Assembly (NCBI GenBank): GCA_913775305.1
Contig: CAJYIY010000118.1
Coordinates: forward strand, 1 to 64,000
DNA from: an uncultured Erwinia sp.
GTDB taxonomy: Bacteria; Pseudomonadota; Gammaproteobacteria; Enterobacterales; Enterobacteriaceae
Direction of reading: 5' to 3'
DNA length: 64,000 nucleotides
Made by a program: the position numbers and the translations under genes. This document shows positions 1-30,551 of the stretch, piece by piece (the stretch's first letter is position 1; every line of letters starts with the position of its first letter). The notes beneath the pieces were generated by a model that was not told where the DNA came from, did not search any database, and saw only the letters and a program-made list of their open reading frames with translations.

Positions 1-118
1 TAGAAAAATACCGTCCTGCTCAGTGATAATGTCCTGCATGCCTGACGTACGCTCATCGCAAACTGCGAGACCAGATAACTGGCGAGCTCACGCTTTATCA
101 CTGGTTTTAAAGCTTTTT
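1..118 (-). CDS. IS3-family transposase OrfB, 5' part only
   Basis: This is the start of the catalytic half of an IS3-family transposase, cut by the window edge. In the -1 frame relative to OrfA the minus strand reads KKALKPVIKRELASYLVSQF and then a segment with RQACRTLSLSRTVFF, typical of the OrfB N-terminus. No independent start is needed, because the product is normally made by -1 frameshifting from OrfA at the A-rich run at 114-121. The DDE residues lie outside the window. Confidence 0.85.
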
Positions 119-373
119 TTCTATGACGTCCTTGAGTGCCCGATTCTCAAGACTCAGGTCAGCAAACATCTGTTTAAGACGCCTGTTTTCATCTTCCAGA
201 TCTTTGATTTTCTTAATATCAGCCGCTTCCATCCCGCCATATTTTGCTTTCCAGTTATAGTAGCTGGCTTCTGAAATAGCGGCCTCACGGCAAACATCTT
301 TGACTGTTCGACCAGCTTCGACTGATTTCAGAACGGCGATAATCTGGTGTTCGGTGAATCTTGCTTTACGCAT
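107..373 (-). CDS. IS3-family transposase OrfA (IS1222/ISEhe3-like)
   Basis: 88-residue DNA-binding subunit of an IS3-family transposase. A helix-turn-helix (RFTEHQIIAVLKSVEAGRTV, then CREAAISEASYYNWKAKYGG) is followed by a leucine-zipper-like coiled coil (DLEDENRRLKQMFADLSLEN) that multimerises the transposase. A good ribosome site (AAGGAGA) precedes the ATG. The gene ends in GAA AAA AAG CTT TAA, where A AAA AAG is an efficient bacterial -1 slippery heptamer that leads into OrfB. The IS end lies somewhere around 380-430, but I could not fix the terminal repeat. Confidence 0.9.
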   Translation of the reverse strand: MRKARFTEHQIIAVLKSVEAGRTVKDVCREAAISEASYYNWKAKYGGMEAADIKKIKDLEDENRRLKQMFADLSLENRALKDVIEKKL

Positions 374-426
374 GGCGATCTCCTTCTGGGGACATATTCA
401 GTATGTCGGAAGACCTCTAAAAGTGA

Positions 427-666
427 ATGGTTCTTTTTACAGGGATATTTACACCTCCGCAACCATACGATCAGCGCATGGTGATAAAGATTGTCGCCGA
501 TACTATCAGAGAGGGTTTCGATAATGGCCGCATAATCTCTGAGCGGCTTAATGAGGCGGGATACCAGACTAAGGCGGGCAAAGCATGGGATAAAGATATT
601 TACAGCGCGTGGAAACGGCAGCGGCAGAATGCTGAGAAGCTGGCGGCGGTTGTGGATAGTAATTAA
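427..666 (+). CDS. Small protein, possibly remnant of a serine-recombinase-like DNA-binding domain
   Basis: 79 codons at most; a shorter start at 478 (MVIKIVADTIREGFDNGRII) is equally possible. The segment with ISERLNEAGYQTKAGKAWDK resembles the (I/A)xxLNxxGYxTxxGxxW signature of the 'recombinase' helix in large serine recombinases, but no catalytic domain is present. It directly abuts the IS3 element, so it may be the 3' remnant of a gene cut by the insertion. Function unknown. Confidence 0.4.
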   Translation: MVLFTGIFTPPQPYDQRMVIKIVADTIREGFDNGRIISERLNEAGYQTKAGKAWDKDIYSAWKRQRQNAEKLAAVVDSN

Positions 667-3062: not shown

Positions 3063-3401
3063 TCAGGACATATCTTGCGCGGTAATGGTCACTTGCCGTC
3101 TTCTTTCCTGCCAGCGACGGTATCCTTCCAACTGCCTGGCTTTTCCCTCAGGTGTCTTTGCACCAGTACTCATTCCACCGTGGTACTTACAGCGTCCGTT
3201 ACTGTAAATATCCTTTCGTTTACAGGGTATGCCTGCACGGGTAATTGCTTCACATCTCATATCGGCTAAATCTTGCGGGAGCGGCTCGTGGGAGGGTTTT
3301 GCGTAATGTGGATAACCAGAAGCTCGCCATCTGTCAAAGCTCTCTCTGCTGCGCCTGTAGTGGGCTTTAAGACGATTGAGCTTTTCAACACGTTTGTTCA
3401 T
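3063..3401 (-). CDS. HGGxSTG-domain small phage protein
   Basis: 112 residues. The centre holds a conserved cysteine/histidine motif, CEAITRAGIPCKRKDIYSNG followed by RCKYHGGMSTGAKTPEGKAR, the signature of the HGGxSTG family found in many prophages and satellites. The Cys-Cys-Cys-His arrangement suggests a zinc knuckle. The N-terminus is strongly basic (RLKAHYRRSRESFDRWRASG). Function unknown; a nucleic-acid role is only an inference. Confidence 0.7.
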   Translation of the reverse strand: MNKRVEKLNRLKAHYRRSRESFDRWRASGYPHYAKPSHEPLPQDLADMRCEAITRAGIPCKRKDIYSNGRCKYHGGMSTGAKTPEGKARQLEGYRRWQERRRQVTITAQDMS

Positions 3402-3482: not shown

Positions 3483-3704
3483 CTAAAACGCCTTCATCAA
3501 ATCTCTTTGCAATTTCTCAGCTATCGCCATCCTGATAAATTCAGCACGGTTCCCTGCAGCGGCGTGAGGCATCCCATTAAGCCGCCGTCCAGACAGATGC
3601 TGATCCACCAGCTCGACCATTTCCCTCTCAACGGTGACAATCAGACGCATAGTCTCGCCCCCATTGAAGTAACGATTCACTTTCTTTTTGGTGCTGGTGG
3701 CCAT
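3483..3704 (-). CDS. Ribbon-helix-helix type small DNA-binding protein
   Basis: 73 residues from the ATG at 3704 (an ATG at 3716 is also possible). The pattern MRLIVTVEREMVELVDQHL followed by NRAEFIRMAIAEKLQRD fits the beta-strand plus two helices of MetJ/Arc-type repressors, with a basic N-terminal tail. No toxin partner is evident next to it, so it is more likely a regulator than an antitoxin. Confidence 0.55.
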   Translation of the reverse strand: MATSTKKKVNRYFNGGETMRLIVTVEREMVELVDQHLSGRRLNGMPHAAAGNRAEFIRMAIAEKLQRDLMKAF

Positions 3705-3812
3705 CGCTATATCCATTTCGCCATCGATACTATTTTATGGGCTCTGAAAATCATCAAAGCTGGGTGCCACAATGCTAATAAGGTCGAAATGGCACAGCGG
3801 CACCAGGCAGAA

Positions 3813-4178
3813 TCACTTCACATTGCCATAATCGCTAAGGTAGTTTTCCGGTTCTTCAAGGCAATTCCGGTAGTATGACATAGTGAAATCAACCTGCCCG
3901 GCATCCCGAATAATCCTGCGGAAAGATTTATCCTGGTAGACCTTGTCGATAACACTTTTAGCAAAGTTAATACCAGCCTCTGGGGGATTTGTTTTCGGTG
4001 CTGCGGACGGAAGCAACGCATCCTCGGACATTTTCCGATGTGGATAGAATCCAACGGCAGTATTTGAAATTGATGTGAATGCCTGTGCATGGGCCATGCA
4101 ATCCTTGTTAATCTCAGCTTGCCCGGCGATAGCTGGCAGCGACAAAACTCCCAGCAGCAAAAACGGCCATTTCATCAT
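3813..4178 (-). CDS. Exported small protein, last gene of tail-tip operon
   Basis: 121 residues with a signal peptide (MMKWPFLLLGVLSLPAIAGQ, cleavage probably after AIA) and two cysteines in the mature part (DCMAH, RNCLEEP), which suggests a periplasmic protein. The start overlaps the stop of the preceding gene (ATGA). In layout it resembles the exported proteins at 29661-30029 and 30156-30551, which follow the spike gene of the right prophage. Such proteins often act in superinfection exclusion, but nothing here proves it. Confidence 0.6.
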   Translation of the reverse strand: MMKWPFLLLGVLSLPAIAGQAEINKDCMAHAQAFTSISNTAVGFYPHRKMSEDALLPSAAPKTNPPEAGINFAKSVIDKVYQDKSFRRIIRDAGQVDFTMSYYRNCLEEPENYLSDYGNVK

Positions 4179-4912
4179 GATAGTAACCCCACCAACTTTT
4201 TAACCGCAGCATCAAGTTGAGCCTCGCCACCCTGCCCTAATACTGAGCGCTTCACCGTGGTGGCAGCAGTTTCAAATGCTGACGGTATCGAGTTTTTTAA
4301 CGAGTTCAAGACAGCATTAATATCTTCCAGCGTTGAGTAGTTCGCTGAAGCATCAATACACTGCCCGGGAAAAATTTCGTTCGATTTAGAAATGACCTGA
4401 ACAGCCTGAAATACTAGCGTAGCCATCAGAAGCGTCACACCTTCCCGCGCATTAATTTTGTAGTCATATCGCGTCAGATCGTAACTGGTATAGATAGTAT
4501 CTGGCGTCTCAATGTCATACAGCTCAGTGGCCGCGACCATCTTATCAAGAGCTGCCAGAAATCCAGACCGGCTCATGGTCGTGAAATTCGTCAGATTCGG
4601 AATGTCACCACTTAGTCCTGTCCAACCTTCAAAAGCTACAACGATGCTGATTTCAGCCGGGCGCTGGATTTTGTTGTAACTGAGGTAATCCCCGCTTTCC
4701 AAGGGGGCTGTAGTGACGGAAGCATCCCGGCCACGAGACACCTCAAGAAAACTGCTTGGTGCCAACGCTACCTGATTAGCCTTTTCTTTGGTCTTCGTTT
4801 GACTGCTGTAGTAAATGCCATAGCTAGGCGATATGGCGCTGTTAATGACAGAGAAGATGCTCCCGCTTTTCAGGGCGCTGAGTAACGTTGTTTCGTTGAG
4901 AGAGAGGGCCAT
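4175..4912 (-). CDS. Baseplate-associated tail protein, satellite copy
   Basis: 245 residues, homologous to the right prophage protein at 32397-33197: both begin SLNETTLLSAL(K/N)SG(S/N)IFS and share ISPSYGIYY/VYPSYGIYL, EGWTG(L/F)SG(D/G)IPN(L/I)TNF and DLYDIETPDT-type segments. The family sits between the tape measure and the spike in Pam3-like contractile phages and is thought to be a baseplate component. Here it follows the hub gene after 9 bp, whereas in the right prophage it directly follows the tape measure. Full length, with no disruption. Confidence 0.75.
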   Translation of the reverse strand: MALSLNETTLLSALKSGSIFSVINSAISPSYGIYYSSQTKTKEKANQVALAPSSFLEVSRGRDASVTTAPLESGDYLSYNKIQRPAEISIVVAFEGWTGLSGDIPNLTNFTTMSRSGFLAALDKMVAATELYDIETPDTIYTSYDLTRYDYKINAREGVTLLMATLVFQAVQVISKSNEIFPGQCIDASANYSTLEDINAVLNSLKNSIPSAFETAATTVKRSVLGQGGEAQLDAAVKKLVGLLS

Positions 4913-4921
4913 ATTACGATC

Positions 4922-5773
4922 CTAGCTATTGAGTTGCTGAGCGACAGGGTAGACAAGCATTGAAGTTAGCCATGTCCCGCCAGTAGTTTTTGTTGATATG
5001 TTGTGTTCCATCGTGCGAATGACAAAAACACCATTAGCAGCCTGGTTCCCGCTTTTAATCTCTATACGGTTTAATCTGCGCAAACGAGGATTGAATAATA
5101 CGTTGACCAATACCCCTGAGTTAGTGACTGTCGGATAACCGATCATTCCAGTTGCATGCGAAACCTCCGTCACAACATCGGAGATAAAGTCCCCCTTCAT
5201 TGAGATTTCGACAACGCCGTTGTGGATAGTACAACCGATATCAGCGGCATCCACACAGTCCATAATCTGCTCGATTGCGCTACCACTGAGGTACATATCC
5301 CGCAGAACTACACTGACCCCATGATTGACGAATGTGTAGCCACAGGATTGCGCCAGCGTGCTGATGACGTCAGCCACATTCACGCCATTCACGAAACTGC
5401 TTGGAGCCGCTGGTTTTACCCGATAGTAATATGTGCTGGTGGATTTTATCCGTAGCGGAACGTCCGGCATTTGGTTGTAATCAACGAAAGCATCATAGAT
5501 AAATCCCTGGTAAATCTGGCTCTCTTTCCCTTCGCTTCCAGCCAGCACAGAGACTATGGTGCCGCTGACCTGAAAGATGCTGGTTCCCTGCCCCACAATT
5601 AGCTGGGTTAGCGCCTGATTAACGTTGAATATGGCAAGGTCTATCTGGCTTTGGCTCCGCCCACCAGCATTAGTCACCGTTAAAGCACAGCGGTAATTTG
5701 AGAGTCTTACCGGTTGCGCTTTATAAGGGAACTTTAATTCAACGGTGATGAGCTTCTCCGTATACTCTTCCAT
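4922..5773 (-). CDS. Baseplate hub-like protein, satellite copy
   Basis: 283 residues, matching the 286-residue hub at 31235-32095 in length and in its C-terminal third (GMIGYPTVTNSGVLVNVLFN versus GLIGYPAWTRDGLYITTMFS). The fold is expected to be the beta-rich trimeric hub (gp27-like) that carries the membrane-puncturing spike. It starts immediately after the spike stop codon. The reading frame is intact. Assignment is by homology to the neighbour prophage and by position. Confidence 0.75.
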   Translation of the reverse strand: MEEYTEKLITVELKFPYKAQPVRLSNYRCALTVTNAGGRSQSQIDLAIFNVNQALTQLIVGQGTSIFQVSGTIVSVLAGSEGKESQIYQGFIYDAFVDYNQMPDVPLRIKSTSTYYYRVKPAAPSSFVNGVNVADVISTLAQSCGYTFVNHGVSVVLRDMYLSGSAIEQIMDCVDAADIGCTIHNGVVEISMKGDFISDVVTEVSHATGMIGYPTVTNSGVLVNVLFNPRLRRLNRIEIKSGNQAANGVFVIRTMEHNISTKTTGGTWLTSMLVYPVAQQLNS

Positions 5774-6436
5774 TTAGCCTCCTTGGCCCACAGGTTTTCC
5801 GGTATTAGAGCTACCTGACTCCACACCGCTATGAGCATGGTCAGACAAATTAATGCCTTTCCCCTGGACTTCACCTGTACTGCGGATATCGCCTGAAACT
5901 GACAGGTTACCGGCGATCTCAACCTCCGGGGCGTCGATCGTAACCTTCGCAAGGCTACGTATAACGACACTCGTACTTTTAAAATGAATGTACTGCTGCG
6001 GAGTGCCATTTAAAAAACCACCAACGTATAATCCACTCGAAAAATGATTCCGAAGCCTGGTGCCCGGCGGGCCTGATTTGCGGGTTTCCTTCACTATCGA
6101 AATATCTCGATCGGTAAAAATGGCCATACCGATATCCCCCACGGCAGGGTCGATCACAATGGCATTCTCCCCACCCTGCAGACGGCAGTATGGAAGATTA
6201 TAAATTTTGTTATGAGGGATAATTGAGCCGTTCGCTTGGATTTGATGGACCATCGGGGACACCGTCACCATACCAACAGGAGAGAGTTCATCACCGGACT
6301 CGACCGATTCTACTGTCACGAGCCCGGAAAAGCATTTACGCCCCAAAAACTGGCGCATCAAAGCCATCATCACATTTTCCTGGGTGGCCATGTCTTCAGG
6401 GGTCAACTCCCCCTGGTAGCTATCGTGATCACTCAT
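5774..6436 (-). CDS. Membrane-puncturing spike (Gp138-like), satellite copy
   Basis: 220 residues. The N-terminal OB-like domain with VTVESVESGDELSPVGMVTV and NAIVIDPAVGDIGMAIFTDR matches the Gp138 N-terminal domain and the right prophage spike at 30548-31234 (VVMDPVVGDIGPMICMDRD). The C-terminus is a beta-helix tip ending in GKGINLSDHAHSGVESGSSN; the HxH pair is where a metal ion sharpens such spikes. It overlaps the tape-measure gene by 4 bp. The spike pierces the outer membrane on sheath contraction. Confidence 0.85.
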   Translation of the reverse strand: MSDHDSYQGELTPEDMATQENVMMALMRQFLGRKCFSGLVTVESVESGDELSPVGMVTVSPMVHQIQANGSIIPHNKIYNLPYCRLQGGENAIVIDPAVGDIGMAIFTDRDISIVKETRKSGPPGTRLRNHFSSGLYVGGFLNGTPQQYIHFKSTSVVIRSLAKVTIDAPEVEIAGNLSVSGDIRSTGEVQGKGINLSDHAHSGVESGSSNTGKPVGQGG

Positions 6437-8247
6437 GACTGGCCACCATTGGCAATCGCAATTAACGGGTTTTTCCCGAGCTCCTTGCGAACGTCCCTCG
6501 CAATACCTTCAGCATCAGTGGCCTGGGTGTAGATTTTAATTTCCCCGATATGGGTTTCAGATACCGTGCCACCATTCGCGGAACCAGTTCGCATGCCTGA
6601 CGTCACGGTGGAACCGACCCGAATACCGCGAAACATGTCCTTCTCCGTGAAGTATTCTGCTCCATTCTCATAATTAGCTATGCCTTTCATCAATCGAGTA
6701 ACAGCATCCATATCCGTGCCGCTGATCACCTCATTGATGCCTTTACCCATTGCCTTGGATAGATATGACATGTAAGCCGAAACATTATTTCCATCAGCAG
6801 ATGGGGCGTAGGTTTTGACGATCGAGGAAATAGTGTTGATGCCGCGCTTAAAGTAAATCTGCAACTGTCGATAGAGTGCTGCGATACCTTCTGCCATTGT
6901 ACCGAACACGGCAAAGCGTCCATTTGGCCCTGATTCTTTAGTCGCACCGGCCTGATTAGCAAAGTTGAGATTGCCAGGGTTGTTGTTGCGAATGCCTCGC
7001 TTTTTCTCCGCTTCTGGATCGCGCTGCCAGTTACCCTGGGCATCCTTTGCCAAATGATACTCACCGTTGATGGAGTCCCATAACTCACCCCAATCCTTGG
7101 ATGTCCTGACGTTCTGGAACCACTGGTTATCACCAAAAGCAGCATTGAGGGCTTTATCGATATACGGCTCGCTCATGTAAGCCGCAGCCCCCGCTATCCC
7201 TGCCTTTCCTATCACACCACCACCCGATTTGAGCAGCAGTGAGTTGACCATCCCGGTGAGAGCAATGCCGACCTTGACAATACTGGCCATAATCCCTGTC
7301 GCCCAGCTTGCCAATGTGAAGCCGGCCAGAATTTTAATCGCATTACCCCAACCGCCTACTGCCTCTATCGCCTTTTCGATATTCTTCCAAAGGTCGTTGA
7401 AGAAGACCGTAATTTGAGCCTGATGAGCAGCGACCCAGTCAGCCAGTTTGCCCAAGAGTTTGTTTAACGAGTCCAGGACAGGCATCAGACTTACTAGCAA
7501 CCTTTGCTTGGTTACATCGAACCGGGCAGACAAGTCGGCTATCTGCTGCTCGTATCGTTGCGCCGCCTTTGTAGCGTTGTCGGTGGCTCCTGACATAGCT
7601 GTATAGTGCGTTACCTGCCCAGAAACGGCCTCCCTGCCCTGAGCCAGCATATTCACCATTTCCGGCGAAAGGCCAACATCTCGGCCAAACATGGTACGTG
7701 ATGCCGCATCCATATTTTTGAACCGGTCAGCCAGCTCTAAATAAATATCCTGAACGCTTTTAAATTGCCCCTTAGCGTTCTGCAGGTTGATACCCAGTCG
7801 CCCAGTAAGCGTCACCAGGCCTTCACTTAGCTGGCCCTTATTCCTGAAGAGGGAGAGATCATTCTGCAAACTCAACATCGCGCCTTTCACCTGGTCAGCC
7901 GAAGCACCAAACCGGGAAAAAGACTTAATCCAGCCGTCCAGAGACTTGGCACTGAATCCAAGCGTCTGCGAGGCATAGCCAAGTTTACTCAGTGAGTCTG
8001 ATGTTTTAGTGATGAAGTTCGAAACGCCTTGTGCCGTCAGAGCCACCCCGGCCAGAGCGAGAATTTCATTACGAATAGAGCTGAAGAAACTGGCGGCGCG
8101 TTTCCCTGCGGCTTCCATATCCTTAGCCAGCTGTTCCATCTGCTTCTTTTGCCGCTTCATCTCTTCGGTAGCTTCTCTGCTGCCAGATTTAAACTTAGAA
8201 GAGTCAAGGCCCAGCGTAACAATCAGAGCATCCACGACTGTGGCCAT
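6433..8247 (-). CDS. Tape measure protein with a C-terminal wall-hydrolase domain, satellite copy
   Basis: 604 residues from the ATG at 8247, chosen because the homologue at 33197-34945 starts with the same MATV(V/I)DAL(I/V)VTLGLD. It sets tail length and is threaded inside the tube. Residues 1-95 align well with the right prophage copy (AAGKRAA(S/N)FF, ILALAGVAL). A hydrophobic stretch follows at about 305-360. Residues from about 420 carry RGIRNNNPGNLNFANQAG and GRFAVFGTMAEGIAALYRQL, a peptidoglycan-hydrolase type domain different from the lytic transglycosylase of the right copy. Intact. Confidence 0.85.
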   Translation of the reverse strand: MATVVDALIVTLGLDSSKFKSGSREATEEMKRQKKQMEQLAKDMEAAGKRAASFFSSIRNEILALAGVALTAQGVSNFITKTSDSLSKLGYASQTLGFSAKSLDGWIKSFSRFGASADQVKGAMLSLQNDLSLFRNKGQLSEGLVTLTGRLGINLQNAKGQFKSVQDIYLELADRFKNMDAASRTMFGRDVGLSPEMVNMLAQGREAVSGQVTHYTAMSGATDNATKAAQRYEQQIADLSARFDVTKQRLLVSLMPVLDSLNKLLGKLADWVAAHQAQITVFFNDLWKNIEKAIEAVGGWGNAIKILAGFTLASWATGIMASIVKVGIALTGMVNSLLLKSGGGVIGKAGIAGAAAYMSEPYIDKALNAAFGDNQWFQNVRTSKDWGELWDSINGEYHLAKDAQGNWQRDPEAEKKRGIRNNNPGNLNFANQAGATKESGPNGRFAVFGTMAEGIAALYRQLQIYFKRGINTISSIVKTYAPSADGNNVSAYMSYLSKAMGKGINEVISGTDMDAVTRLMKGIANYENGAEYFTEKDMFRGIRVGSTVTSGMRTGSANGGTVSETHIGEIKIYTQATDAEGIARDVRKELGKNPLIAIANGGQS

Positions 8248-8414
8248 CAGACACACTCCTGAGCCAGAGCTTTCGCCATCAGGCCTCGGGCAATCTCATG
8301 GATTGTTGGTGCGACGCCCAAGCCTGAGCGTTTGCGCTGATTCTCCTGGATATAGCGTATTTTCTCGACCTGCTCATTACTCAGCAGCACAGGTTTAACT
8401 TTTGCCTTACTCAT
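8247..8414 (-). CDS. Small regulator-like protein heading the tail-tip operon
   Basis: 55 residues, MSKAKVKPVLLSNEQVEKIR then GVAPTIHEIARGLMAKALAQ. The short strand followed by two helices resembles ribbon-helix-helix proteins. It has a strong ribosome site (AGGGGG) and its stop overlaps the tape-measure start (TGATG). In the right prophage the same position is taken by the frameshifted tail chaperone, so this gene is not part of the usual tail order and may be the operon's own regulator. Confidence 0.6.
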   Translation of the reverse strand: MSKAKVKPVLLSNEQVEKIRYIQENQRKRSGLGVAPTIHEIARGLMAKALAQECV

Positions 8415-8440
8415 AACCACCCCCTGATATTTATACAGTT

Positions 8441-8677: not shown

Positions 8678-8688
8678 ATAGTTAATTT

Positions 8689-9834
8689 TTATTTATTTTT
8701 AAGCACAAAAGAAATTACATTATCGCTTTGTGTCAATTCGTCAGCAGTAAGCTGAGTTATTGCTGACAAGTCAGATGTAGGTAACCCAAAAACATCAATT
8801 AAATCTGTGATTTTCAGTATAGAGTGCGTATCCAGCAGTTTCAGAAGAGTATTCAAAAGCTGGGGGCTTTCTTTGGGTATAATATCATCTAATGGTTCCT
8901 TTCTTCTAAAAGGTGCCAACTGCCTAAAAACATAAACCTTCTGATTATCGCTCATGATATTTAAATCATGGGCTCTCATAGTTATCGCACCAATAGATAC
9001 CAGCCAGCGTTCCTTTAACTTCTCAAGGGCCGATATGTTTGGAGAATAATATTCCCTGCCAAATGTGCCTGACGGAAGGAGAAAGCAAGAAGCAAAATAA
9101 TCAGCTTGACTCTCTACCAAGTCGAAAAGTTGCTTATCATCTAAGTAGCTATCTTCAACGGTTCTGTGCATTATTAGGTGCCCGAGTTCATGGGCAAGAC
9201 TAAAGCGCATTCTCACAGCAGTTTTTGATCGATCCAAAATAACCACAGGACGATCTCTTTCCCAAAATGAGAAAGCATCAACTTTCTCACCTGAGGATAG
9301 GTGTGATATAACAATTCCTTTATTTTCCAGTAGCTTGGTTAGATTTAAAATTGGACCATCACCAAGCTGCCAAAATCTACGTACCTTAGTCGCAATTTCC
9401 TCAATGTCAGCCTTTTCGAGAAGCTCAAAGTCAGCGATATCAAGATCGGGTAAGGATACTTGGGGTAACTGAGCATACTTACTGCACTCTTGCAAAATGA
9501 GAGATACCCAACGCCCCCGAACCCTCCCACTCATTCGCGCCTTTTTCGTTGCTGTACTGCGACTACGAAAATGTACTGCCCCCTCAATTTCAGGAGAACT
9601 TTGACTGGAAATAAAAAAGCGCTCAGGAAAACCAAGAACTTTAGTTATATCCATTAATGTTTCGTGAGATGGAGCCTTGATTCCCTTTTCAAATGAAGAA
9701 ATAGCCTGCCTTGAAATACCAAGAACTCTGGCCAAGTCAGCCATTGTCAAACCTTTAGCCTCTCTCGCCTCTGAAAGCCTTGATGGATTGAAAGACCTTT
9801 CTGAAAAGCTGGGAGATATTATCTTGCCGTTCAT
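8689..9834 (-). CDS. XRE repressor fused to ImmA/IrrE metalloprotease
   Basis: 381 residues. Residues about 17-75 form an XRE helix-turn-helix (LSEAREAKGLTMADLARVLG, ISRQAISSFEKGIKAPSHET). A DUF955 zinc protease follows, with HELGH (in RMRFSLAHELGHLIMHR) and a downstream ESQADYFASCFLLPS helix supplying the third ligand. Proteins of this plan act as phage-type anti-repressors, stress regulators or antitoxins. It overlaps the upstream gene by 4 bp (ATGA) and ends at a terminator, so the two form a closed pair. Expected to be cytoplasmic. Confidence 0.85.
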   Translation of the reverse strand: MNGKIISPSFSERSFNPSRLSEAREAKGLTMADLARVLGISRQAISSFEKGIKAPSHETLMDITKVLGFPERFFISSQSSPEIEGAVHFRSRSTATKKARMSGRVRGRWVSLILQECSKYAQLPQVSLPDLDIADFELLEKADIEEIATKVRRFWQLGDGPILNLTKLLENKGIVISHLSSGEKVDAFSFWERDRPVVILDRSKTAVRMRFSLAHELGHLIMHRTVEDSYLDDKQLFDLVESQADYFASCFLLPSGTFGREYYSPNISALEKLKERWLVSIGAITMRAHDLNIMSDNQKVYVFRQLAPFRRKEPLDDIIPKESPQLLNTLLKLLDTHSILKITDLIDVFGLPTSDLSAITQLTADELTQSDNVISFVLKNK

Positions 9835-10442
9835 GATTGTTGATTTCTAATTTTCTGTTCAGTAAGAAGTATGATTTTATCTTCAATATCTGATTCAATG
9901 TCTTCTGCTTCAACTTCTTGAATTGAAGCTATTCGCAATGATTCTGTGTACAGTACATTTAAGTTATCTGGCGTTGGTACTGTGAAATTTAAGAAAGACA
10001 AGTGTTGGTTTTTACCTTCGTGTAAAAGATACACATGCCCACCGAGTTCTTCAGAGGCTGAGGATGAACACCCATCATCAAAAAAATCAAGATTCTGATG
10101 CGAGTATGAGACGCGATATTTGGCCTGCTTAGGCAAAGGTCCGCGGCCGGGAAGGTGATGGACTGTCATTAACCAGTTATTAGAATGGATAGCGATATGC
10201 TTGCAGTTTCCTGCAGCATTTTTACCGATGTCAAAATCCATCCCAAGTTGTCGGGAAGTTTTTTCTAGCAAAGCATCTACATAAAACCAACGTAAGTAGG
10301 ATTGGGCTTGGAACCAAAACGAGCCAAATTCTTTAGCCTTCAGATGAGAGTGCAAATAGGCTTGCGACAGAGACATCGAAAGCTCTTTTCGGCAATCCTG
10401 CCCAAACGCATCAAGTAGTTGTTGAGAGTAGCTGGTAGGCAT
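9831..10442 (-). CDS. Unknown partner of the ImmA/IrrE regulator
   Basis: 203 residues from the ATG at 10442 (GGTGAG ribosome site); a TTG at 10475 is less likely. No family recognised. Visible features are an aromatic-rich N-terminal helix region (FGSFWFQAQSYLRWFYVDAL), a central beta-rich part with HHLPGRGPLPKQAKYRVSYS and an acidic C-terminus (EVEAEDIESDIEDKIILLTE). Tight coupling to an XRE-metalloprotease makes a toxin, or an effector whose regulator is proteolysed, plausible. It is the first gene after the putative origin. Confidence 0.6.
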   Translation of the reverse strand: MPTSYSQQLLDAFGQDCRKELSMSLSQAYLHSHLKAKEFGSFWFQAQSYLRWFYVDALLEKTSRQLGMDFDIGKNAAGNCKHIAIHSNNWLMTVHHLPGRGPLPKQAKYRVSYSHQNLDFFDDGCSSSASEELGGHVYLLHEGKNQHLSFLNFTVPTPDNLNVLYTESLRIASIQEVEAEDIESDIEDKIILLTEQKIRNQQS

Positions 10443-10465
10443 TTTTATCTCACCGTTAGAAATGA

Positions 10466-10504
10466 TGTCAACCAATTTTGCATTTTATCCATGTTTTGTC
10501 AACC
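10466..10504. repeat. GGTTGACA direct repeats upstream of the ImmA pair
   Basis: Two copies of GGTTGACA on the minus strand (10466-10473 and 10497-10504), 31 bp apart, about three helical turns. They overlap possible -35 elements (TTGACA) and are a candidate autoregulatory operator for the XRE protein. Confidence 0.4.
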
Positions 10505-10748: not shown

Positions 10749-13556
10749 TTACTCTGGCTGGCCGTCTTCGGGGAGGAAGTTCAGCACGTAAACCCGAATT
10801 TGCCGTCCCTCGATGCGCGGTGACTTCCGCTGGTAGCCGCGGTCGCTGGTGGGCGGCGTCAGCATCCCGGCCTGTTTCAGCGCCTCAGCGAACTGTTTGG
10901 CGTTGAAGCCCTTTGCGATCTCCTGTTCAAACGTTGACGGGAAAGTGTAGAAAATCATCGGGTCAGCATCGTGAGCGCCTTTCGCGCGGTAGCCGGCCTG
11001 GTCACGAATGGGCAGCCCTGCCGGGTCATACGGGAACGGCGCGTAGCGGCTCAGGCCGTGGGCATTCAGAAACGCCTCGCACTGCTCGATGATCTGCTGA
11101 TGCTCCTTGTTCCCGGTACCGAACTCACGTACCCAGGCGTTAAAGCTGTGCTTTACGGCATCACAGCACGTCTGCTCGTCCCAGCCGGTGATAACCCGGC
11201 CCAGCATCAGCGCAGCCTCGATGATGGCGAACCGGGCCGCCACGCGGTGTACCTGTTCACCATAGTCAGGCGGTATCAGAGCTCGCCAGCGGCTCTCAGC
11301 TTCACTCACGGCATCAGCAGCCTGTTGCTGGTGGTCTGCCAGCCATTTCACCCAAGCTCGCCCGGCAGCACCGTGGTGGCTCTGATAGGCATCTTTCAAC
11401 GCGTCAGCATGCTGCTTACCGTTCTGGTGTTCATGGAACCTCACGGCTTTACTCAGCGGAATATTCAGCAGGCGAACCAGCTGCCCGGCCTTAACTTTCT
11501 GACCAGTGGTGGAGATGAACGTATCCAAATCCATTTCCCCGGTGCTGATTGCCACGGTGCGCCAACGTTTCAGGTCGCGGTTACCGCCTTCCTTCGCTCC
11601 CTGCAGTTTACCCACGCCGTTAAACAGGGCGTAAGCCGACTGCGCCACGCTGCGGGCATCAGCCCCCTGCCCAACCTCATCCAGTGGCATCAGCGCGTCA
11701 TTGTGTGCTGCGGCCTCGTTTGCCAGCCCCAGTGCGGTGCCGTACCACGTCAGGCGCAGCTGGTCGGGATTACCATACAGGCTGCTGGCCACATTGGCCG
11801 TGGTGGTCTTACCGGCACTAGACTGCTCATAGAAATGGATGCCGAACCCGTCAGCGCCCGCCAGGCCGATAAGCGGAGCGGCCAACGCTGCGCCGATGCC
11901 AGTCATCATTGAGTAGTTGCCGTCCACCAGCCGGGCAATGCTGTTTCGCCAGGTGTCAGCCGTTCCGCTGCAGGTGTAACCCGCTGCCGCCGAGCTGCGT
12001 CCGTTAAACAGTACCGGCACATCCGGGGAGCCGATGATCTCGCCGTCGGGCATGATGTACGCGCCGCACTGCCAGCCGGTGGCCTGTGCCACACGCCATA
12101 GCTCACGCGGGCCGCTGCGTTGGAGCCAGTCAGCCAGAGTGGCGCGCATTGCGGGTTTGGTTGTGATGTTGACTCCACCAGCTTTCAGTACGCGCCAGCC
12201 CTCACGTTCCCCGATATCAGCCAGTGGTAGCGCATGTACAGTTGATGTCGCTGCGCCAACAGGCTGCCAGCGCATGATAAGGAACTGGTCTTTGTCGTCA
12301 CGCCCAATGCCAATCACCTCCAGCGGTGAACAGAGCCAGGATTCGTTGGTAATGATCTCCCCGCTGGCGTTATCGACTTTAGCCGTCACCCAGTACACGC
12401 CGTCGGCGCGATTCTCAATCCGGGGCTTTAGCGGGTCGATAAATCTTGTTGCGTTCTTGTTGTCCTCTGGTTCTGCCTCTGGAGCCACCACTGCCTCCCT
12501 TGCCGTATTCTTGCCGTCCTTAGTGGGCTGCGTCTGCGGTATCACCTTTGCGCCCTCTGGCTGGTATAGCCCATCGGCAAAATGTTTTGCTGACGTTTCC
12601 AACCCCTTTTTTTGGCGGTAGTCATCCCAGTCTGCTTTGTAGTCTGTCGGCGGCACTGATACCCAGCCGCCCACAGATAAAGCGGCTTTTTCTGCGGCTT
12701 CTTTTCCCGTGTTTGCCTCTCCGTCCTGCTGGTGGTCGTTATCTGCGGCAATGATGATCTGAGCCTGTGGATACTTTCGTCGCATGGTTTCCGCCACAGG
12801 TGAAATGTTACCAGCGTCGATTGCTGCCACTGTGAGCGCGTCAGGGCGCATCATGTGAACAGTCACCGCAGTAGCAAGTCCCTCAGCAATTAACACATTC
12901 TGTGGCGCTTCTGCTGCGTTTACGGCGTGATATGCCCCGCGCTTCGCTGAACCTGCCAACAATCGTTTTTCACCCTGAGGGGTAATGGTCTGCGCAGCGT
13001 TAACAGCTCCGGTTTCATCTGTCAGCGCCACCAGCATTGCCCCGGCTTTGGTTATCGGGTATGTGAAGCCTGTCAGCCCTTTGTTAATCAGGTACTCAGA
13101 TTCGCCCTGCACGCTGTTTTGCAGGGCCTCACCGTACAGACGGGCAAACGTAGCACGGCGTTGCTCTTTGTCTGCTGTGACCTGTTTCTGGCGCTCATGC
13201 TCACGCTGCTGGTGCGCTGCGGATAACTGACTCCTTCTCTGGCTGGCTGCCTCTGGCGTTTCTGTCGCCCGGTAATCAATTCCCAGCACATCAGCGGCTA
13301 ACTTCGCCGCCTCCGTGGTGTCGCAGTGGTTTACTTTGGCGATAAGGTCGAGGCCGTCACCCGCCCCGCACTGGTTGCAGATATGACTGCCGCGCCCGTT
13401 ATCATCGAACCGGAAGCGATCATTACCGCCGCAGTTCGGGCAGGCGGTATGCTTTCGGGATGAATCAGGCACATCGATAGACAGGCCAGCCAGAACAAAA
13501 GGCCAGTTGCCTGCGGCTGCTCCGGTGACTTCACGGATTAAATCAATGCTTTTCAT
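10749..13556 (-). CDS. P4-type primase with DUF927 helicase-like domain
   Basis: 935 residues from the ATG at 13556 (GGGGG ribosome site, overlapping the preceding stop). The N-terminus has a CHC2-like zinc finger (HTACPNCGGNDRFRFDDNGR, then CNQCGAGDG), followed by a TOPRIM region (VLIAEGLATAVTVHMM, IIIAADNDHQ). The C-terminal half is DUF927-like, with a P-loop (HFYEQSSAGKTTTANVAS) and PLDEVGQGADAR as Walker B. It should unwind and prime the satellite from the adjacent iterons. Function is inferred from the domains and location. Confidence 0.85.
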   Translation of the reverse strand: MKSIDLIREVTGAAAGNWPFVLAGLSIDVPDSSRKHTACPNCGGNDRFRFDDNGRGSHICNQCGAGDGLDLIAKVNHCDTTEAAKLAADVLGIDYRATETPEAASQRRSQLSAAHQQREHERQKQVTADKEQRRATFARLYGEALQNSVQGESEYLINKGLTGFTYPITKAGAMLVALTDETGAVNAAQTITPQGEKRLLAGSAKRGAYHAVNAAEAPQNVLIAEGLATAVTVHMMRPDALTVAAIDAGNISPVAETMRRKYPQAQIIIAADNDHQQDGEANTGKEAAEKAALSVGGWVSVPPTDYKADWDDYRQKKGLETSAKHFADGLYQPEGAKVIPQTQPTKDGKNTAREAVVAPEAEPEDNKNATRFIDPLKPRIENRADGVYWVTAKVDNASGEIITNESWLCSPLEVIGIGRDDKDQFLIMRWQPVGAATSTVHALPLADIGEREGWRVLKAGGVNITTKPAMRATLADWLQRSGPRELWRVAQATGWQCGAYIMPDGEIIGSPDVPVLFNGRSSAAAGYTCSGTADTWRNSIARLVDGNYSMMTGIGAALAAPLIGLAGADGFGIHFYEQSSAGKTTTANVASSLYGNPDQLRLTWYGTALGLANEAAAHNDALMPLDEVGQGADARSVAQSAYALFNGVGKLQGAKEGGNRDLKRWRTVAISTGEMDLDTFISTTGQKVKAGQLVRLLNIPLSKAVRFHEHQNGKQHADALKDAYQSHHGAAGRAWVKWLADHQQQAADAVSEAESRWRALIPPDYGEQVHRVAARFAIIEAALMLGRVITGWDEQTCCDAVKHSFNAWVREFGTGNKEHQQIIEQCEAFLNAHGLSRYAPFPYDPAGLPIRDQAGYRAKGAHDADPMIFYTFPSTFEQEIAKGFNAKQFAEALKQAGMLTPPTSDRGYQRKSPRIEGRQIRVYVLNFLPEDGQPE

Positions 13557-13899
13557 TGAAGCCCCCAGCGTCCAGTGAGTCACCCATGTCGTTAATCATG
13601 CTCGCCCAGGCTTCGCGTCCTGTGTCTGTCAGGCCGTCAGCGCCAATACACCGTTTCAGGTACTGAATACCGATGCTCTCCCATTCATGAGCGTGGAAGG
13701 TATTCTTCATAGCCTCCAGCGCCCAGGAATCCACTAAGTCACGAATGCCATTCACACCGTCTGTAATTGCCACTTCAATGCGGGTGCTGCCAACGTTCAT
13801 CGGGAACCAGTCGCCACCGTTCTGTTGTCTTACACTGTCGTACACGGCTGCAGCGAACTGGTTTGCCAGTGAATTAAGCTGAAAGTTTTTAGTAATCAT
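13543..13899 (-). CDS. Satellite small protein, unknown
   Basis: 118 residues starting at 13899 (GAGGGGG ribosome site). Contains FAAAVYDSVRQQNGGDWFPM and ends ASMINDMGDSLDAGGFNEKH. No family known to me. It is coupled between two operon members: its stop overlaps the primase start region. Confidence 0.55.
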   Translation of the reverse strand: MITKNFQLNSLANQFAAAVYDSVRQQNGGDWFPMNVGSTRIEVAITDGVNGIRDLVDSWALEAMKNTFHAHEWESIGIQYLKRCIGADGLTDTGREAWASMINDMGDSLDAGGFNEKH

Positions 13900-16969: not shown

Positions 16970-17532
16970 TAGTGAACCTCCGGCAGTTGGGGCTGGTATC
17001 TGCGCCATAACTCCGCTTCTTCGGCAATCAGGCGGGATTTTTCAGCTTTGCAGGATTGAAGGGCAGAGCCGCGCTTGCTGGCCTTCTGGGTGTAAGCCGC
17101 TTTGCGCTTGCTGTGGTCATTCAGGAGCGCGAAGGGAACCCCATACGCACCTGTTTTGCGGATAGATGGGATAACGTCACGGAATACCCAGTTAGTGAAC
17201 CGATGGGCGAATGTGCCGGGTGTGCTGGCCTTCCTGCTGCGGGCGATCAGTTTGTAGAAACCAGACTCAGCTACCACGTTCCAGCTCCGGGCACCACCAC
17301 GCCGGCCAGAATGGCCCTCAGTTAAAGTGAGGGTCATTACCTCGTCACTATCGATAGAGGAAACGGCGCTGGTGGGGTTGCCGATTTCCAGCGACAGGCA
17401 AACGTCAGCAGCCACAAACCACGGCTCACCGTAAACGCTCACGATGCGAACGGTCTTACCTTCGAACTTAATTACCGAAATATCGCTGCTATTAGCGGTA
17501 AACGTAGCTTTACTGCCGGTGAGCTTAGTCAT
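16969..17532 (-). CDS. BRO-N domain antirepressor-like protein
   Basis: 187 residues from the ATG at 17532 (GGGGG ribosome site). The N-terminal BRO domain is clear: ISVIKFEGKTVRIVSVYGEP, WFVAADVCLSLEIGNPTSAV, then SGFYKLIARSRKASTPGTFA, HRFTNWVFRDVIPSIRKTGA. Such proteins inhibit phage repressors or bind DNA. The C-terminus is basic (HSKRKAAYTQKASKRGSALQ). Its start overlaps the end of the AntA-type gene. Confidence 0.8.
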   Translation of the reverse strand: MTKLTGSKATFTANSSDISVIKFEGKTVRIVSVYGEPWFVAADVCLSLEIGNPTSAVSSIDSDEVMTLTLTEGHSGRRGGARSWNVVAESGFYKLIARSRKASTPGTFAHRFTNWVFRDVIPSIRKTGAYGVPFALLNDHSKRKAAYTQKASKRGSALQSCKAEKSRLIAEEAELWRRYQPQLPEVH

Positions 17533-18367
17533 GGCTAACCCCCAGTCGTTTAGCCAGCCAGCGCTGCGACAGGCGCACCAGTTCCGGCTTACGCTGCTCA
17601 TACGGCATACCCATGTCGATCAGTGTAACGTTGGTGCTCTCCAGATAGGTGAGATGCTCCAGCTGCTCGGTGCTCATGCTGTCGCGTGACTCTCCGCTAA
17701 CCCCGTTCACCTGCGCCCACTGTTTAGCCGTGAGGCCCGCCAGGACAATGCGGGCGATCATGTTGCTCTCGTTGGAATAGTGGCGGGGTAATGTCTGCTT
17801 ACCTTGCTCAGCGCGGGCAGTCTCCAGCGCGGCACACATCGGCGTGAACATGTTGGCGGCACCGATCCGGGCTTTTAGCTGGCGACGGTATTTGGCGGCT
17901 ATCGCTGGCGCACTGAGCTGTAACGCTTCCTCGCACTGGATGAAGTATCGGCGAACGGCCCGGCCCTGTTCGGTACGTTCCACCATTGCCAGCTCTTTTG
18001 CCATGCCTACGGAAAGGCTGTAATCCTTACTGCGACGATCTCCGCCGCGCTTCGTTACCCACCCACTGGCAGACTGATCGATATTTGTACTTTGGTTCCT
18101 GAAATCTGAGGAATCAAAAACGATGTAATCAATATCCAGGGTAAAACCATACTCACCAATACGCAGCTTCATCCAGGTAGAAAAGTCATTACCCACGCCT
18201 AGCACTTTATGCAGTGCTTTCGCACTCACGATATTGGTTTCACGCCCGCCAATCAGACCGGAAGTAATCGGGATAATTGCGGCAAAGTCGCTGCCGGTAA
18301 TATCGCTGCGGCTGTGCTCGATGTGAGGGATGGCCTCAGAAATTAATCTGATTTTTTCAGTTTTCAT
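17525..18367 (-). CDS. AntA/AntB-type antirepressor
   Basis: 280 residues. The AntA domain is visible at about 40-135: TNIVSAKALHKVLGVGNDFS, TWMKLRIGEYGFTLDIDYIV, KDYSLSVGMAKELAMVERTE, RAVRRYFIQCEEAL. The rest contains a probable DNA- or protein-binding region ending in KPELVRLSQRWLAKRLGVSH. In P1 the Ant proteins inactivate the repressor and are controlled by C4 RNA. Here the RNA lies downstream, so the link is not direct. It may act on a helper prophage repressor. Confidence 0.75.
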   Translation of the reverse strand: MKTEKIRLISEAIPHIEHSRSDITGSDFAAIIPITSGLIGGRETNIVSAKALHKVLGVGNDFSTWMKLRIGEYGFTLDIDYIVFDSSDFRNQSTNIDQSASGWVTKRGGDRRSKDYSLSVGMAKELAMVERTEQGRAVRRYFIQCEEALQLSAPAIAAKYRRQLKARIGAANMFTPMCAALETARAEQGKQTLPRHYSNESNMIARIVLAGLTAKQWAQVNGVSGESRDSMSTEQLEHLTYLESTNVTLIDMGMPYEQRKPELVRLSQRWLAKRLGVSHD

Positions 18368-18381: not shown

Positions 18382-18801
18382 TTAAGCGGCGGGAAACGCG
18401 TCCGGGTACAAGGTCAGAATGTCGTTAATTTCACGCTGAGACAGACCGGTATAGCCACCAGCTGCGGCATTGCCATTAACGAGCTGGATCACGCGCATGA
18501 CATCAGCACGACAGGTAATGCGGTAACGGAAGTGGCTTCCGATCCCGTCGCCGTTCGGCTCATTAATGCGTTCAAGCTGAATATCAAGCCGCCGCTCCAG
18601 GTCGGAAGCGTAATTCCTTCCTGACGACAGCCGGCAGTATCGAAGAATCTCGTTCTCAGTGAAGCCATTAACGCCTGTACGCATCATGTAGACGCGGGCG
18701 CGGTGCTTTTTCGGTGCTGGTTTAATGGTGCTGGTGCGGGTATCATCGTAGGCGCTAACCTGTCCGATGATGCCCGCCTCTGTGCGGGTTTTCTTTTGCA
18801 T
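18382..18801 (-). CDS. Satellite conserved protein, possible winged helix
   Basis: 139 residues. The central GFTENEILRYCRLSSGRNYA, SDLERRLDIQLERI looks like a helix-turn-helix or winged helix, with a basic N-terminus (KPAPKKHRARVYMMR). Its ATG overlaps the AlpA stop (TAATG). Probably a regulator, but no family is certain. Confidence 0.55.
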   Translation of the reverse strand: MQKKTRTEAGIIGQVSAYDDTRTSTIKPAPKKHRARVYMMRTGVNGFTENEILRYCRLSSGRNYASDLERRLDIQLERINEPNGDGIGSHFRYRITCRADVMRVIQLVNGNAAAGGYTGLSQREINDILTLYPDAFPAA

Positions 18802-18998
18802 TACGCCACCTCGCCGCGCGACTCAGCGATCCGCTGTTTTACCCAGGCATCAACCTCACTTTCAATGAAGGCAATGGCCCGCGCGCCAATTTTCACAGCC
18901 GGTGGGAAGCGCTCCTGACGCATCAGACGATAAATCCACGCTTTGCTGTATCCTGTGCGACGTTGTACTTCCGGGAAACGTATCAATGATTGAGACAT
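18801..18998 (-). CDS. alpA: AlpA-family transcriptional regulator
   Basis: 65 residues with the standard AlpA plan: LIRFPEVQRRTGYSKAWIYR (MerR-like helix-turn-helix), QERFPPAVKIGARAIAFIES and EVDAWVKQRIAESR. AlpA proteins control integrase/excision genes of P4-like islands. It heads the leftward operon, with about 100 bp of upstream non-coding DNA for its promoter. Confidence 0.85.
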   Translation of the reverse strand: MSQSLIRFPEVQRRTGYSKAWIYRLMRQERFPPAVKIGARAIAFIESEVDAWVKQRIAESRGEVA

Positions 18999-20160: not shown

Positions 20161-21375
20161 CTATGCGCGTTGCCCAAATCTCCCATAAGCAACGTTTCCG
20201 CCGTTCGCCAGCGCTTCCATATAGTCGGCATACCATTGAAGCATCTCCCGTCGGCCGTCCAGGTACTGGGCGTGGTTATAAGTGCCGCGGATCGAGTTTT
20301 TATCGACATGCGCCAGCTGTGTTTCTATCCACGCGGTGTTGTATCCCTGTTCGTGCAAAATGGTGCTCATAGTGTGCCGGAAACCGTGCCCAGTAGCTTT
20401 GCCGTCATAGCCAATACGTTTGATCACCTGATTAATGCTGGCCTCGCTCATTGGCTTGCCGGCGTCATTACGGCCAGGGAAGACATACTTACCACGGCCG
20501 GTGAGCTGGTGGATTTCCTCCAGCATCGCTTTAACCTGGCTGGATAAAGGCACGACGTGCGGGCGGCGCATCTTCATTCGTTCAGCGGGTATCTGCCAGA
20601 GATCTTTCTCCAGATCGATATCAGCCCACTCAGAAGCACGCAGCTCGATTGTTCGCAGTCCGGTGAGCATTAGCAGGCTGGTAGCAGAACGTGTCACCAT
20701 ACTGCCGCTGTAGCCGCTAAGTGCTTTGAGAAAGTCAGGTATCTGTTCGAGGTTCAGATGAGGGAAGTGCTTCTGCTTCGGTGCTTTCAGCGCACCAGCA
20801 AGATCGATAACGGGATTATTCTCTGCCCTGCCGGTAATTACCGCATGGGTAAAAATTTGCCTACAGGCTTGCCGGGTCTTCTTCAACTTGTCCAAAACAC
20901 CGCGTTGTTCCATTTTACGCAGCACGGCCAGCATCTCAGCCGGTTTAATGTCGTTGATTGCCCGCTTACCGATGAAGGGAAAAATGTCTTTGGAGAGGTA
21001 TTCCAGGATGTCGGAGGCATAGCCTTCTGACCAATTGCCTTTTTTATGGTCGTGCCACTCGATAGCGATCGCCTCAAAGCTGTTCTGAACGGCTAATACT
21101 TTGGCTTGTTTTTCGGCCTGCTTCTCCTGCCCCGGATCGCCACCAGCTGCCAATACCTTTTTTGCGTCATCGCGCCGCCGCCTGGCATCGGCCAGTGGCA
21201 CATCAGGATATACCCCCACCGCCAGCAGCTTCTCTTTACCTGCAACGCGGTATTTCAGCCGCCAGTATTTTGCGCCGTTAGGGTTCACCAGCAGATACAG
21301 GCCGCCGCCGTCAGCCAGCTTATAGGGTTTATCCTTTCCTTTGGCAGACTCGATCTGACGGGCATTAAGCTTCAC
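20161..21375 (-). CDS. int: P4-type tyrosine recombinase integrase
   Basis: 404 residues from a GTG at 21375 (an in-frame stop lies just upstream). The N-terminal DUF4102 arm-binding domain (LADGGGLYLLVNPNGAKYWR) is followed by the catalytic domain with Arg in TGLRTIELRASEWADIDL, HGFRHTMSTILHEQG, the second His in QLAHVDKNSIRGTY and the nucleophilic Tyr nearby. It faces away from the tRNA-Arg fragment, as integrases of tRNA-borne islands do, and should act at 21542-21585. Confidence 0.9.
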   Translation of the reverse strand: MKLNARQIESAKGKDKPYKLADGGGLYLLVNPNGAKYWRLKYRVAGKEKLLAVGVYPDVPLADARRRRDDAKKVLAAGGDPGQEKQAEKQAKVLAVQNSFEAIAIEWHDHKKGNWSEGYASDILEYLSKDIFPFIGKRAINDIKPAEMLAVLRKMEQRGVLDKLKKTRQACRQIFTHAVITGRAENNPVIDLAGALKAPKQKHFPHLNLEQIPDFLKALSGYSGSMVTRSATSLLMLTGLRTIELRASEWADIDLEKDLWQIPAERMKMRRPHVVPLSSQVKAMLEEIHQLTGRGKYVFPGRNDAGKPMSEASINQVIKRIGYDGKATGHGFRHTMSTILHEQGYNTAWIETQLAHVDKNSIRGTYNHAQYLDGRREMLQWYADYMEALANGGNVAYGRFGQRA

Positions 21376-21541: not shown

Positions 21542-21585
21542 TGGCACGCCCTACAGGATTCGAACCTGTGACCTACGGCTTAGAA
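21542..21585 (-). other. Attachment site: 3' 44 bp of a tRNA-Arg(UCU) gene
   Basis: The minus strand reads TTCTAAG (anticodon loop region), then a T-arm ACAGG-TTCGAAT-CCTGT and ends GTGCCA, matching the 3' part of argU-type tRNA-Arg. The 5' half is missing, so this is an att fragment and not a gene. It marks the junction of the two elements; the intact tRNA should lie at the far right end of the prophage, beyond 64 kb. Confidence 0.75.
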
Positions 21586-21647
21586 GATAGTAGATCACAT
21601 CTCAACACACTGTAAATGAACAATAAATCCATGCTCGCATCATGATT

Positions 21648-30155: not shown

Positions 30156-30551
30156 CTACATTCCGATTGAATAACTGACGCCCATCAATGATGTGAATCC
30201 GGCACTTCCGCACACTGAGAAGTCAACCCAGTATCTTCTTCCCTCTTCAAGAAGGCGTTGAAGGTCTGCGTATTGACCCTTGTCCAGCTGGTCAAAGTTT
30301 GTAGGGATAGCGAAAACCTCGCCATCCCCGCGCGAAAACTGGATTAATTTGATGGTGTTACCACTATCCGAATATTGAAACCTCTTTGCCGTAAAAAGAC
30401 CAGAGTGCGCCTCACACCCGTCAAGGACATCTGATAGGCCCTTTACACCGCCGGTAAGCGTTAGTTTGTCCCGGTATACCTCTGGCTTAGAGTCAGCGAA
30501 GCAGTTTGCGCTAATAAGAACAGATAGAATCATTAGAAATTTAAAGTTCAT
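30156..30551 (-). CDS. Exported small protein downstream of the spike
   Basis: 131 residues with a signal peptide (MNFKFLMILSVLISANCFAD) and two further cysteines (LDGCEAHS, FSVCGSAG). The start overlaps the spike stop by 4 bp. AIPTNFDQLDKGQYADLQRL is helical. It probably acts in the periplasm; the function is unknown. Confidence 0.65.
   Translation of the reverse strand: MNFKFLMILSVLISANCFADSKPEVYRDKLTLTGGVKGLSDVLDGCEAHSGLFTAKRFQYSDSGNTIKLIQFSRGDGEVFAIPTNFDQLDKGQYADLQRLLEEGRRYWVDFSVCGSAGFTSLMGVSYSIGM

Follow-up and report, generated by a model that had tools for sequence, protein, structure and literature searches.

The operon and its satellite

The stretch of DNA analysed here (the window) comprises bases 1–64,000 of contig CAJYIY010000118.1 (C118; 123,259 bases) from a 3.96-Mb, 134-contig assembly of an uncultured Erwinia sp. 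Its left part carries a phage satellite and, within this, an operon of six genes that code for a small protein, a tape measure protein (TMP), a baseplate spike, a baseplate hub, a Dit-like baseplate protein and a small exported protein (Table 1). Adjacent genes overlap by 1–4 bases, abut or lie 9 bases apart, and all six frames are full length with a single stop, which confirms the tight operon described in an earlier note on this DNA. Its observation that no sheath, capsid or terminase gene lies alongside was also borne out; the satellite encodes a TMP and a hub without a tube, sheath or capsid, the gene content by which chimeric-tail satellites are recognised. The note went too far in calling the tail tip complete, as a 102-amino-acid (aa) phrog_349 protein and the wedge and fibre genes are missing from the operon. 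Nor did its candidate promoter and insulating terminator hold up: a scan of 3,400–8,760 found 2 promoters against 6.5 in shuffled sequences and 5 terminators against 5.1, neither above chance. By eye, a hairpin rich in G and C, with a short run of T, is visible at 8,656–8,677. An alternative TMP start (GTG at 8,256) is less likely because the TMP of a second satellite, G098 (below), also begins with MAT. The exported protein had no match in 50,697 phage records; among 392 family genomes it occurred in its own genome only, and elsewhere the searches made found it only in G098. A structure model built from these 2 sequences was unreliable (pLDDT 49).

By its genes, the core of the satellite is like that of a phage-inducible chromosomal island (PICI). 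As in Gram-negative PICIs, an integrase lies at the end next to an attachment (att) site, together with an AlpA-type regulator and a primase/rep gene; Bro-N and ORF6N antirepressors, besides AntA, also lie to the right of the operon. The genes psu, sid and delta are specific to P4, and none of these families was found among 20 window proteins scanned with Pfam, so the P4-type label given earlier does not hold. Among the satellite proteins scanned, a set that covered part of the small open reading frames (ORFs), no terS or other packaging redirector was recognised; terS-like genes occur in several relatives. The same proteins included no capsid, portal or terminase of the satellite's own, the genes that characterise capsid-forming PICIs (cf-PICIs). 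RmrA/RmrT-like anti-phage genes (8,689–10,475) lie between the primase and the operon, and G098 has a SoFic-like gene near its left end.

Both ends of the satellite could be placed. At the right, the att site is the 3′ end of a tRNA-Arg gene, a complete copy of which lies close to the integrase gene in four relatives (L131, L133, L136 and L175). The att core is single in the window, and the contig closes at its left in an insertion sequence (IS). This IS (window 1–450 plus bases 1–877 of a second contig, C49) sits in a conserved gene at the left end of the satellite and breaks the assembly there; the gene halves at 451–666 and C49:884–1108 flank it, from which we infer that C118 and C49 are linked. 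A left att core lies at C49:2641, ~1.8 kb past the IS, preceded by 126 bases that are 92% identical to the sequence upstream of the integrase gene (window 21,436–21,561). Since the att cores at 21,549 and C49:2641 flank the operon, it is contained in a satellite that by our own sum measures ~23 kb without the IS. The leftward extension that the earlier note had suggested thus led to the left attachment site by way of the split gene; the operon lies on the satellite side of the tRNA fragment, as stated there, and a left end between 8.4 and 10.6 kb, which would have placed it outside, was not found.

Beyond the left core, C49 (2641–5752) carries a second, truncated element with integrase sequence 90% identical over 561 bases and another att copy at 5752, which makes the tRNA-Arg site a tandem array. 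In genomes G016, G017 and G033, att pairs with the common core AATCCTGTAGGG bound elements of ~13, 16 and 19 kb. No second att copy was found for G006 and L175, which are one and the same element, and the search motif was not detected in L169.

Table 1 Features of the window. The six operon genes (3,813 to 8,414) have one stop each.
Feature	Position	Strand	Basis
Right attachment site, 3′ end of tRNA-Arg	21549..21590	-	att core match; anticodon tct in relatives
Tyrosine integrase	20161..21375	-	PF00589, PF22022, PF13356
AlpA regulator	18801..18998	-	PF05930
AntA antirepressor	17525..18367	-	PF08346
Primase-helicase: zinc ribbon, Toprim, DUF927	10749..13583	-	family search and primase alignment
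RmrT-like defence gene, accessory	9831..10475	-	PADLOC 1.4e-11; phrog_35814
RmrA-like defence gene (helix-turn-helix and M78 peptidase), accessory	8689..9834	-	PADLOC 1.8e-111; PF06114, PF01381
Small cassette-head gene, 55 aa, ribbon-helix-helix-like by inference	8247..8414	-	alignment, structure model, profile
TMP, 604 aa, C-terminal transglycosylase-like region	6433..8247	-	phrog_2013, phrog_2276, phrog_873, phrog_7182
Baseplate spike, gpV Apex motif, 220 aa	5774..6436	-	PF18946; weak PF18715, PF18352
Baseplate hub, 283 aa	4922..5773	-	E217_GP41 PF22759, phrog_196
Dit-like baseplate protein, 245 aa	4175..4912	-	Dit_like PF21821, phrog_1830
Small exported protein (signal peptide by eye)	3813..4178	-	no family match
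77-aa gene, far cassette edge	3483..3716	-	similar gene directly behind small gene in cassette-less L169 (likeness by eye)
HGG-motif small protein, chassis gene past cassette	3063..3401	-	in G098 and other relatives
3′ half of IS-split chassis gene	451..666	+	5′ half is C49:884-1108
IS element end, closing contig (IS3-like by eye)	1..450	.	also C49 1-877
Prophage TMP, Dit, phrog_349, hub and spike (possible helper counterparts)	30548..34945	-	family search; pairwise comparison

Recurrence of the operon in a second satellite

We looked for the operon elsewhere with pattern scans of 2.9 million viral contigs, using the hub, the spike and the TMP. The hub scan returned a single relative, IMGVR_UViG_3300046794_000699 (G098), and the spike scan the same contig; a hub scan of genome contigs returned none. 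G098 has the integrase-AlpA-primase core (71%, 75% and, for the C-terminal half of the primase, 75% identical to the window), followed by the operon in the same gene order (TMP 70%, spike 72%, hub 75%, Dit 62% and exported protein 66% identical) and by the HGG-motif protein (49%). All operon frames are intact in both. Across five cassette genes (the small gene not included), nonsynonymous divergence (dN) is 0.17–0.26 and synonymous divergence (dS) is saturated, which argues for purifying selection. The operon is thus intact, part of the satellite and recurrent at the same place in an independent satellite, where the earlier note had proposed to look for it; it is not confined to complete prophages.

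The TMP scan returned 66 viral loci, G098 among them, and the remaining 65 served as controls. A sheath marker, or the next marker taken as the tube, was present in 62 of these, and the other 3 start just upstream of the TMP. AlpA, primase and exported-protein markers occurred in none of the 65 control loci despite their related TMP, and an integrase match in three (L068, L074 and L088). Where a full tail module was visible, the controls had the order TMP-Dit-phrog_349-hub-spike, with parts absent in L089 and L090; the order TMP-spike-hub-Dit-exported of the window and G098 differs from this complete-phage order. Among myophages, hub homologues occur in Pantoea phage PA-1 and the Aeromonas phage 56 group; PA-1 is homologous throughout its tail module. 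Unlike the satellite, PA-1 has sheath and head genes and the order TMP-(Dit)-phrog_349-like-hub-spike, in which the places of the TMP, Dit and phrog_349 are our own reading of its gene list; the small head gene was not found in the PA-1 stretch.

A cassette slot among relatives

Starting from an alignment of eight primases, we collected 120 loci: 40 lie in named genome contigs and 80, the best of 129, in viral contigs. A primase ORF is present in 118 of them (L168 and L188 have none and were excluded). We searched for cassette genes on the same strand up to 10 kb downstream of the primase, so that a neighbouring element could be counted in some loci, and classified them with phmmer, accepting E values up to 1e-5, by likeness to reference proteins that carry PHROGs or Pfam names; 110 slot proteins chosen from 134 candidates were also searched with Pfam. 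A cassette of TMP, tip or ejection-type genes was present in 76 of the 118 relatives, in 68 of those 98 for which 7 kb or more of downstream sequence was available, and in 50 of 82 rows, window and G098 included, after thinning at 95% primase identity per label. By kind, 39 loci have a TMP alone (TMP-like only in 4 of these), 11 a TMP together with tip genes and 12 tip genes but no TMP; 6 are P22-type and 8 other internal virion-type, and 42 have no cassette. The satellite family has a cassette slot downstream of the primase, and many relatives hold injection or tip proteins of other phages there.

Near relatives have other genes than the window in this slot: TMP_2 in G020, TMP_3 in G006 (Pantoea coffeiphila) and a lambda gpI-like gene in G016. 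P22-type proteins match phrog_598 (DNA ejection), phrog_917 (released upon infection), phrog_770 (DNA transfer), P22_gp7 and Inj_translocase. The other internal virion-type cassettes, whose proteins match phrog_1044, 992, 684, 3003 and 1145 (endolysin, head protein, virion structural, unknown), are probably of podovirus origin. Across the family, the cassettes appear to span myovirus, siphovirus and podovirus types, assignments that are our own except for the P22-type, which the libraries so name. Several labels are soft. Over its full length, the TMP-like protein of L268 matches an unknown PHROGs family, and its C-terminal half in addition matches a TMP family; the spikes of L228, L235 and L265, without a PHROGs match, were called from likeness to the window spike or from gene order. 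Single slot proteins match portal, capsid and large-terminase families, so that a few relatives have capsid or packaging genes nearby.

An ~108-aa protein (phrog_19131; L158, L159, L175 and others) occurs in 29 loci, 28 of which have a TMP_2/TMP_3-type gene that it directly precedes; it may be a chaperone or adaptor.

The P22-type form is widespread in Escherichia coli. A stretch of L196 with the primase and the P22 ejection genes was covered to at least 80% in 245 of 5426 complete E. coli genomes, with some match in 1338. In E. coli EC38, the element lies between tRNA-Thr and pao genes and has integrase, antA, ash, TOPRIM/DUF927 and Abi genes and three annotated DNA ejection proteins, with gp16 marked incomplete and no capsid genes in the list. 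The window stretch had no match in the E. coli collection; of the stretches of further relatives, two had no place covering 80% of the query and one had no match.

The small gene at the head of the cassette

A profile of the small gene matched in 69 of 120 satellite loci and in 0 of 65 control phage loci, and a search of 50,697 phage records with its relative from L189 gave no match. It lies downstream of the primase in 63 of the 76 cassettes, within 450 bases of the first cassette gene in 57 and within 100 in 27. The structure model is confident (pLDDT 91; helices 13–29 and 38–52), and sequence pattern and helix layout together suggest a ribbon-helix-helix-like protein. As a query on its own, the small gene was found in 27 of 392 family genomes, the window's included, which overlap in part with the genomes of the 40 primase loci. 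Among 25 further places, 16 have the same primase, and 14 of these a cassette; 4 of the other 9 have an integrase and AlpA with different genes behind the small gene, and at some of the rest few genes or none could be recognised. L169 has, immediately behind the small gene, a gene resembling the 77-aa gene and then the HGG gene with no cassette between, which looks like an empty slot.

In five loci (L306, L307, L308, L309 and L314), the small head gene occurs with neither this primase nor a recognised cassette; uncharacterised proteins of ~115–265 aa follow it immediately, and TerS-like genes come later.

Exchange of cassettes between chassis

Closely related primases are followed by different cassettes. 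The primases of L166 and L214, which have a TMP and a P22-type gp7-gp20-gp16 cassette, respectively, are 92.6% identical over 919 aa. For L163 (internal virion-type) and L174 (TMP_3-type), the figure is 94.3% over 670 aa, and for L173, whose tip genes come without a TMP, and L225, whose tip genes come with one, it is 93.7% over 923 aa. The primases of L261 (TMP_3-type) and L267 (TMP-like, a soft label) are 98.4% identical. Among the nearest chassis relatives of the window, L175 has a TMP_3 protein and L152 a gpI gene. Mapped on a primase tree with 71 rows, the seven cassette labels require 33 changes, against a minimum of 6 and a mean of 42.7 after shuffling, and no shuffle in 200 was as low; this indicates that cassettes track the chassis loosely and swap often.

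Comparison with the neighbouring prophage

Right of the satellite lies a myo-prophage that has, besides the tail genes in Table 1, large terminase, portal, major head and sheath genes. The two TMPs are alike in their N-terminal halves only (36% over ~300 residues), and identity is 25% for the hub, 41% for the spike and 45% for Dit. Lengths (satellite/prophage) are 604/582 aa for the TMP, 220/228 for the spike, 283/286 for the hub and 245/266 for Dit. The C-terminus of a TMP faces the tail tip, and a likeness confined to the N-terminal half, with diverged tip proteins of similar length, fits a chimera, in which a helper tube would form around the satellite TMP and the C-terminus of this TMP would fit the satellite tip.

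Proposed function and alternatives

We consider it probable, from gene content and comparison, that this PICI-like satellite uses the operon as an injection cassette and builds chimeric virions. On induction of the helper, the satellite would make its own TMP, hub, spike and Dit-like protein; these would seed a tail tip for the assembly of tube, sheath, wedges and fibres from the helper, so that satellite particles would combine a shell of the helper with injection parts of the satellite. Regulation of the cassette would probably fall to the small ribbon-helix-helix-like protein. A likely gain would be entry where injection by the helper is blocked, by superinfection exclusion or a tail-targeting defence, or the sparing of the satellite while the helper is impaired. 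TMP, hub, spike and the ejected internal proteins of podoviruses serve genome delivery, and from these known roles we take delivery, not tail length, to be the feature common to the cassettes. We lean slightly towards a broader reading, in which one Enterobacterales chassis has a plug-in slot, usually headed by a satellite-specific small gene, for injection-conduit proteins of the current helper: TMP and tip for long-tailed phages, and gp7-gp20-gp16 or internal virion proteins for podoviruses. On this reading, exchanging the helper's injection machinery, and not its capsid, would be a strategy of satellites in general, perhaps in order to get past the helper's superinfection exclusion and enter its lysogens.

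Several observations weigh against these readings. The 42 relatives without such a cassette (12 of them with less than 7 kb of sequence) indicate that the family does not need one; 5 of the 42 have a gpZ-type and 2 a gpI-type tail gene. Tip genes come without a TMP in 12 of the 76 cassettes. The TMP-like protein of L268 (in a cluster with those of L189, L266 and L267) and an 844-aa protein of L213 match the window TMP over ~125–145 residues only, close to the C-terminal end of the window TMP, and this matching part is the transglycosylase-like one. A TMP_3 search for resident phages matched 12 of 17 cassette-bearing genomes, with the satellites' own copies among the matches, and a hub search, made without a positive control, matched 0 of the 17. 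Finally, the slot doubles as an accessory region that houses defence genes, as described in PMC11364771, so that some cassettes could act by interference.

As interference, the tip proteins would be dominant-negative parts or decoys that poison tail assembly by the helper without becoming part of satellite particles. Tail-assembly inhibitors (Tai) of PICIs sit in the accessory region downstream of pri, again according to parts of PMC11364771, and the RmrA/RmrT-like defence genes adjoin the window cassette. A poison would need just one part, however, whereas whole sets (TMP, hub and spike, or gp7-gp20-gp16) stay together, mostly at full length, and the window/G098 cassette is under purifying selection; we judge interference unlikely. 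More doubtful still is that the TMP cassette mainly sets the tail length of satellite particles, even though a TMP does set tail length. Tails of the satellite PLE11 are ~10 nm shorter than those of its helper ICP1 (passages of PMC12987554), but the window and prophage TMPs are about equal in length, the proteins that P22-type cassettes replace belong to phages lacking a long tail, and 12 of 76 cassettes have hub, spike or Dit without a TMP.

Least credible is the alternative raised in the earlier note, a well-preserved remnant of a prophage that once occupied the same tRNA site. Tandem elements do occupy the tRNA-Arg site and the module does resemble that of a complete myophage, but G098 has the same rearranged gene order, which is not that of complete phages, behind the same core. 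Intact frames in both copies, proteins 65–75% identical under saturated synonymous change and the low dN speak for selection, and dozens of satellites hold other cassettes in the slot, so that the remnant reading is largely refuted.

Relation to known satellites

Satellites are known to steal or resize capsids and to redirect packaging. P4-like satellites share with the window satellite integration at a tRNA gene, an AlpA-like regulator and a primase. The AlpA, Pri-Rep and Int proteins of PICIs and P4 are only distantly homologous, according to parts of PMC6092414. Gram-negative PICIs of the EcCICFT073 type described there resemble the window satellite in integrase, AlpA and primase-rep, and several of its relatives have terS-like genes; the window satellite differs in its ~23 kb and in that no terS was seen among the proteins scanned. 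The term 'tape measure' is absent from the main text of that paper. Some cf-PICIs carry predicted tmp genes, like the window satellite (passages of PMC12987554), but they form capsids, and no capsid gene was found among its scanned proteins.

The closest parallel is with the PLE satellites of Vibrio cholerae; according to PMC12987554 (Mathur, Boyd et al., Nature 2026), no satellite was known to build chimeric tails before PLEs. PLE11 particles hold the satellite TMP and hub instead of those of ICP1, as established by mass spectrometry, western blot and deletion, and deletion of tmp lowered transfer by ~96–99.9% across three PLEs; the legend of Extended Data Fig. 10b of the same report lists putative tmp genes both in elements resembling PLEs and in some of the cf-PICIs. 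Both PLEs and the window satellite encode their own TMP and baseplate hub; PLEs take other tail parts from the helper, and the window satellite would do so. PLEs parasitise the lytic phage ICP1 in Vibrio cholerae and carry TMP, TAC and BhuB, whereas the window satellite has an integrase-AlpA-DUF927 primase chassis of Enterobacterales and a cassette of TMP, spike, hub, Dit and exported protein, and its relatives swap cassettes. No report of interchangeable injection cassettes in satellites was found in searches of the open PMC library, which does not cover preprints and most subscription journals. If the proposal is right, the injection machinery of a common enterobacterial satellite group is exchangeable and stems from phages of several kinds, and the question of why satellites change tails becomes directly testable, the swapped parts being those that deliver DNA; the P22-type form, at the E. 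coli frequency given above, is common enough to study.

Further observations on the loci

In a more distant chassis group, L245, L248, L249, L251 and L252 have a gpZ-like minor tail gene, followed in L245, L248 and L251 by a TerS-like gene. L153, whose record is titled Chryseobacterium, has the same enterobacterial core, and contamination is likely. A conserved protein of ~200 aa (x199), with no function assigned, occurs in 23 of the 120 loci (for example, L159 21831–22457 and L150 14326–14937).

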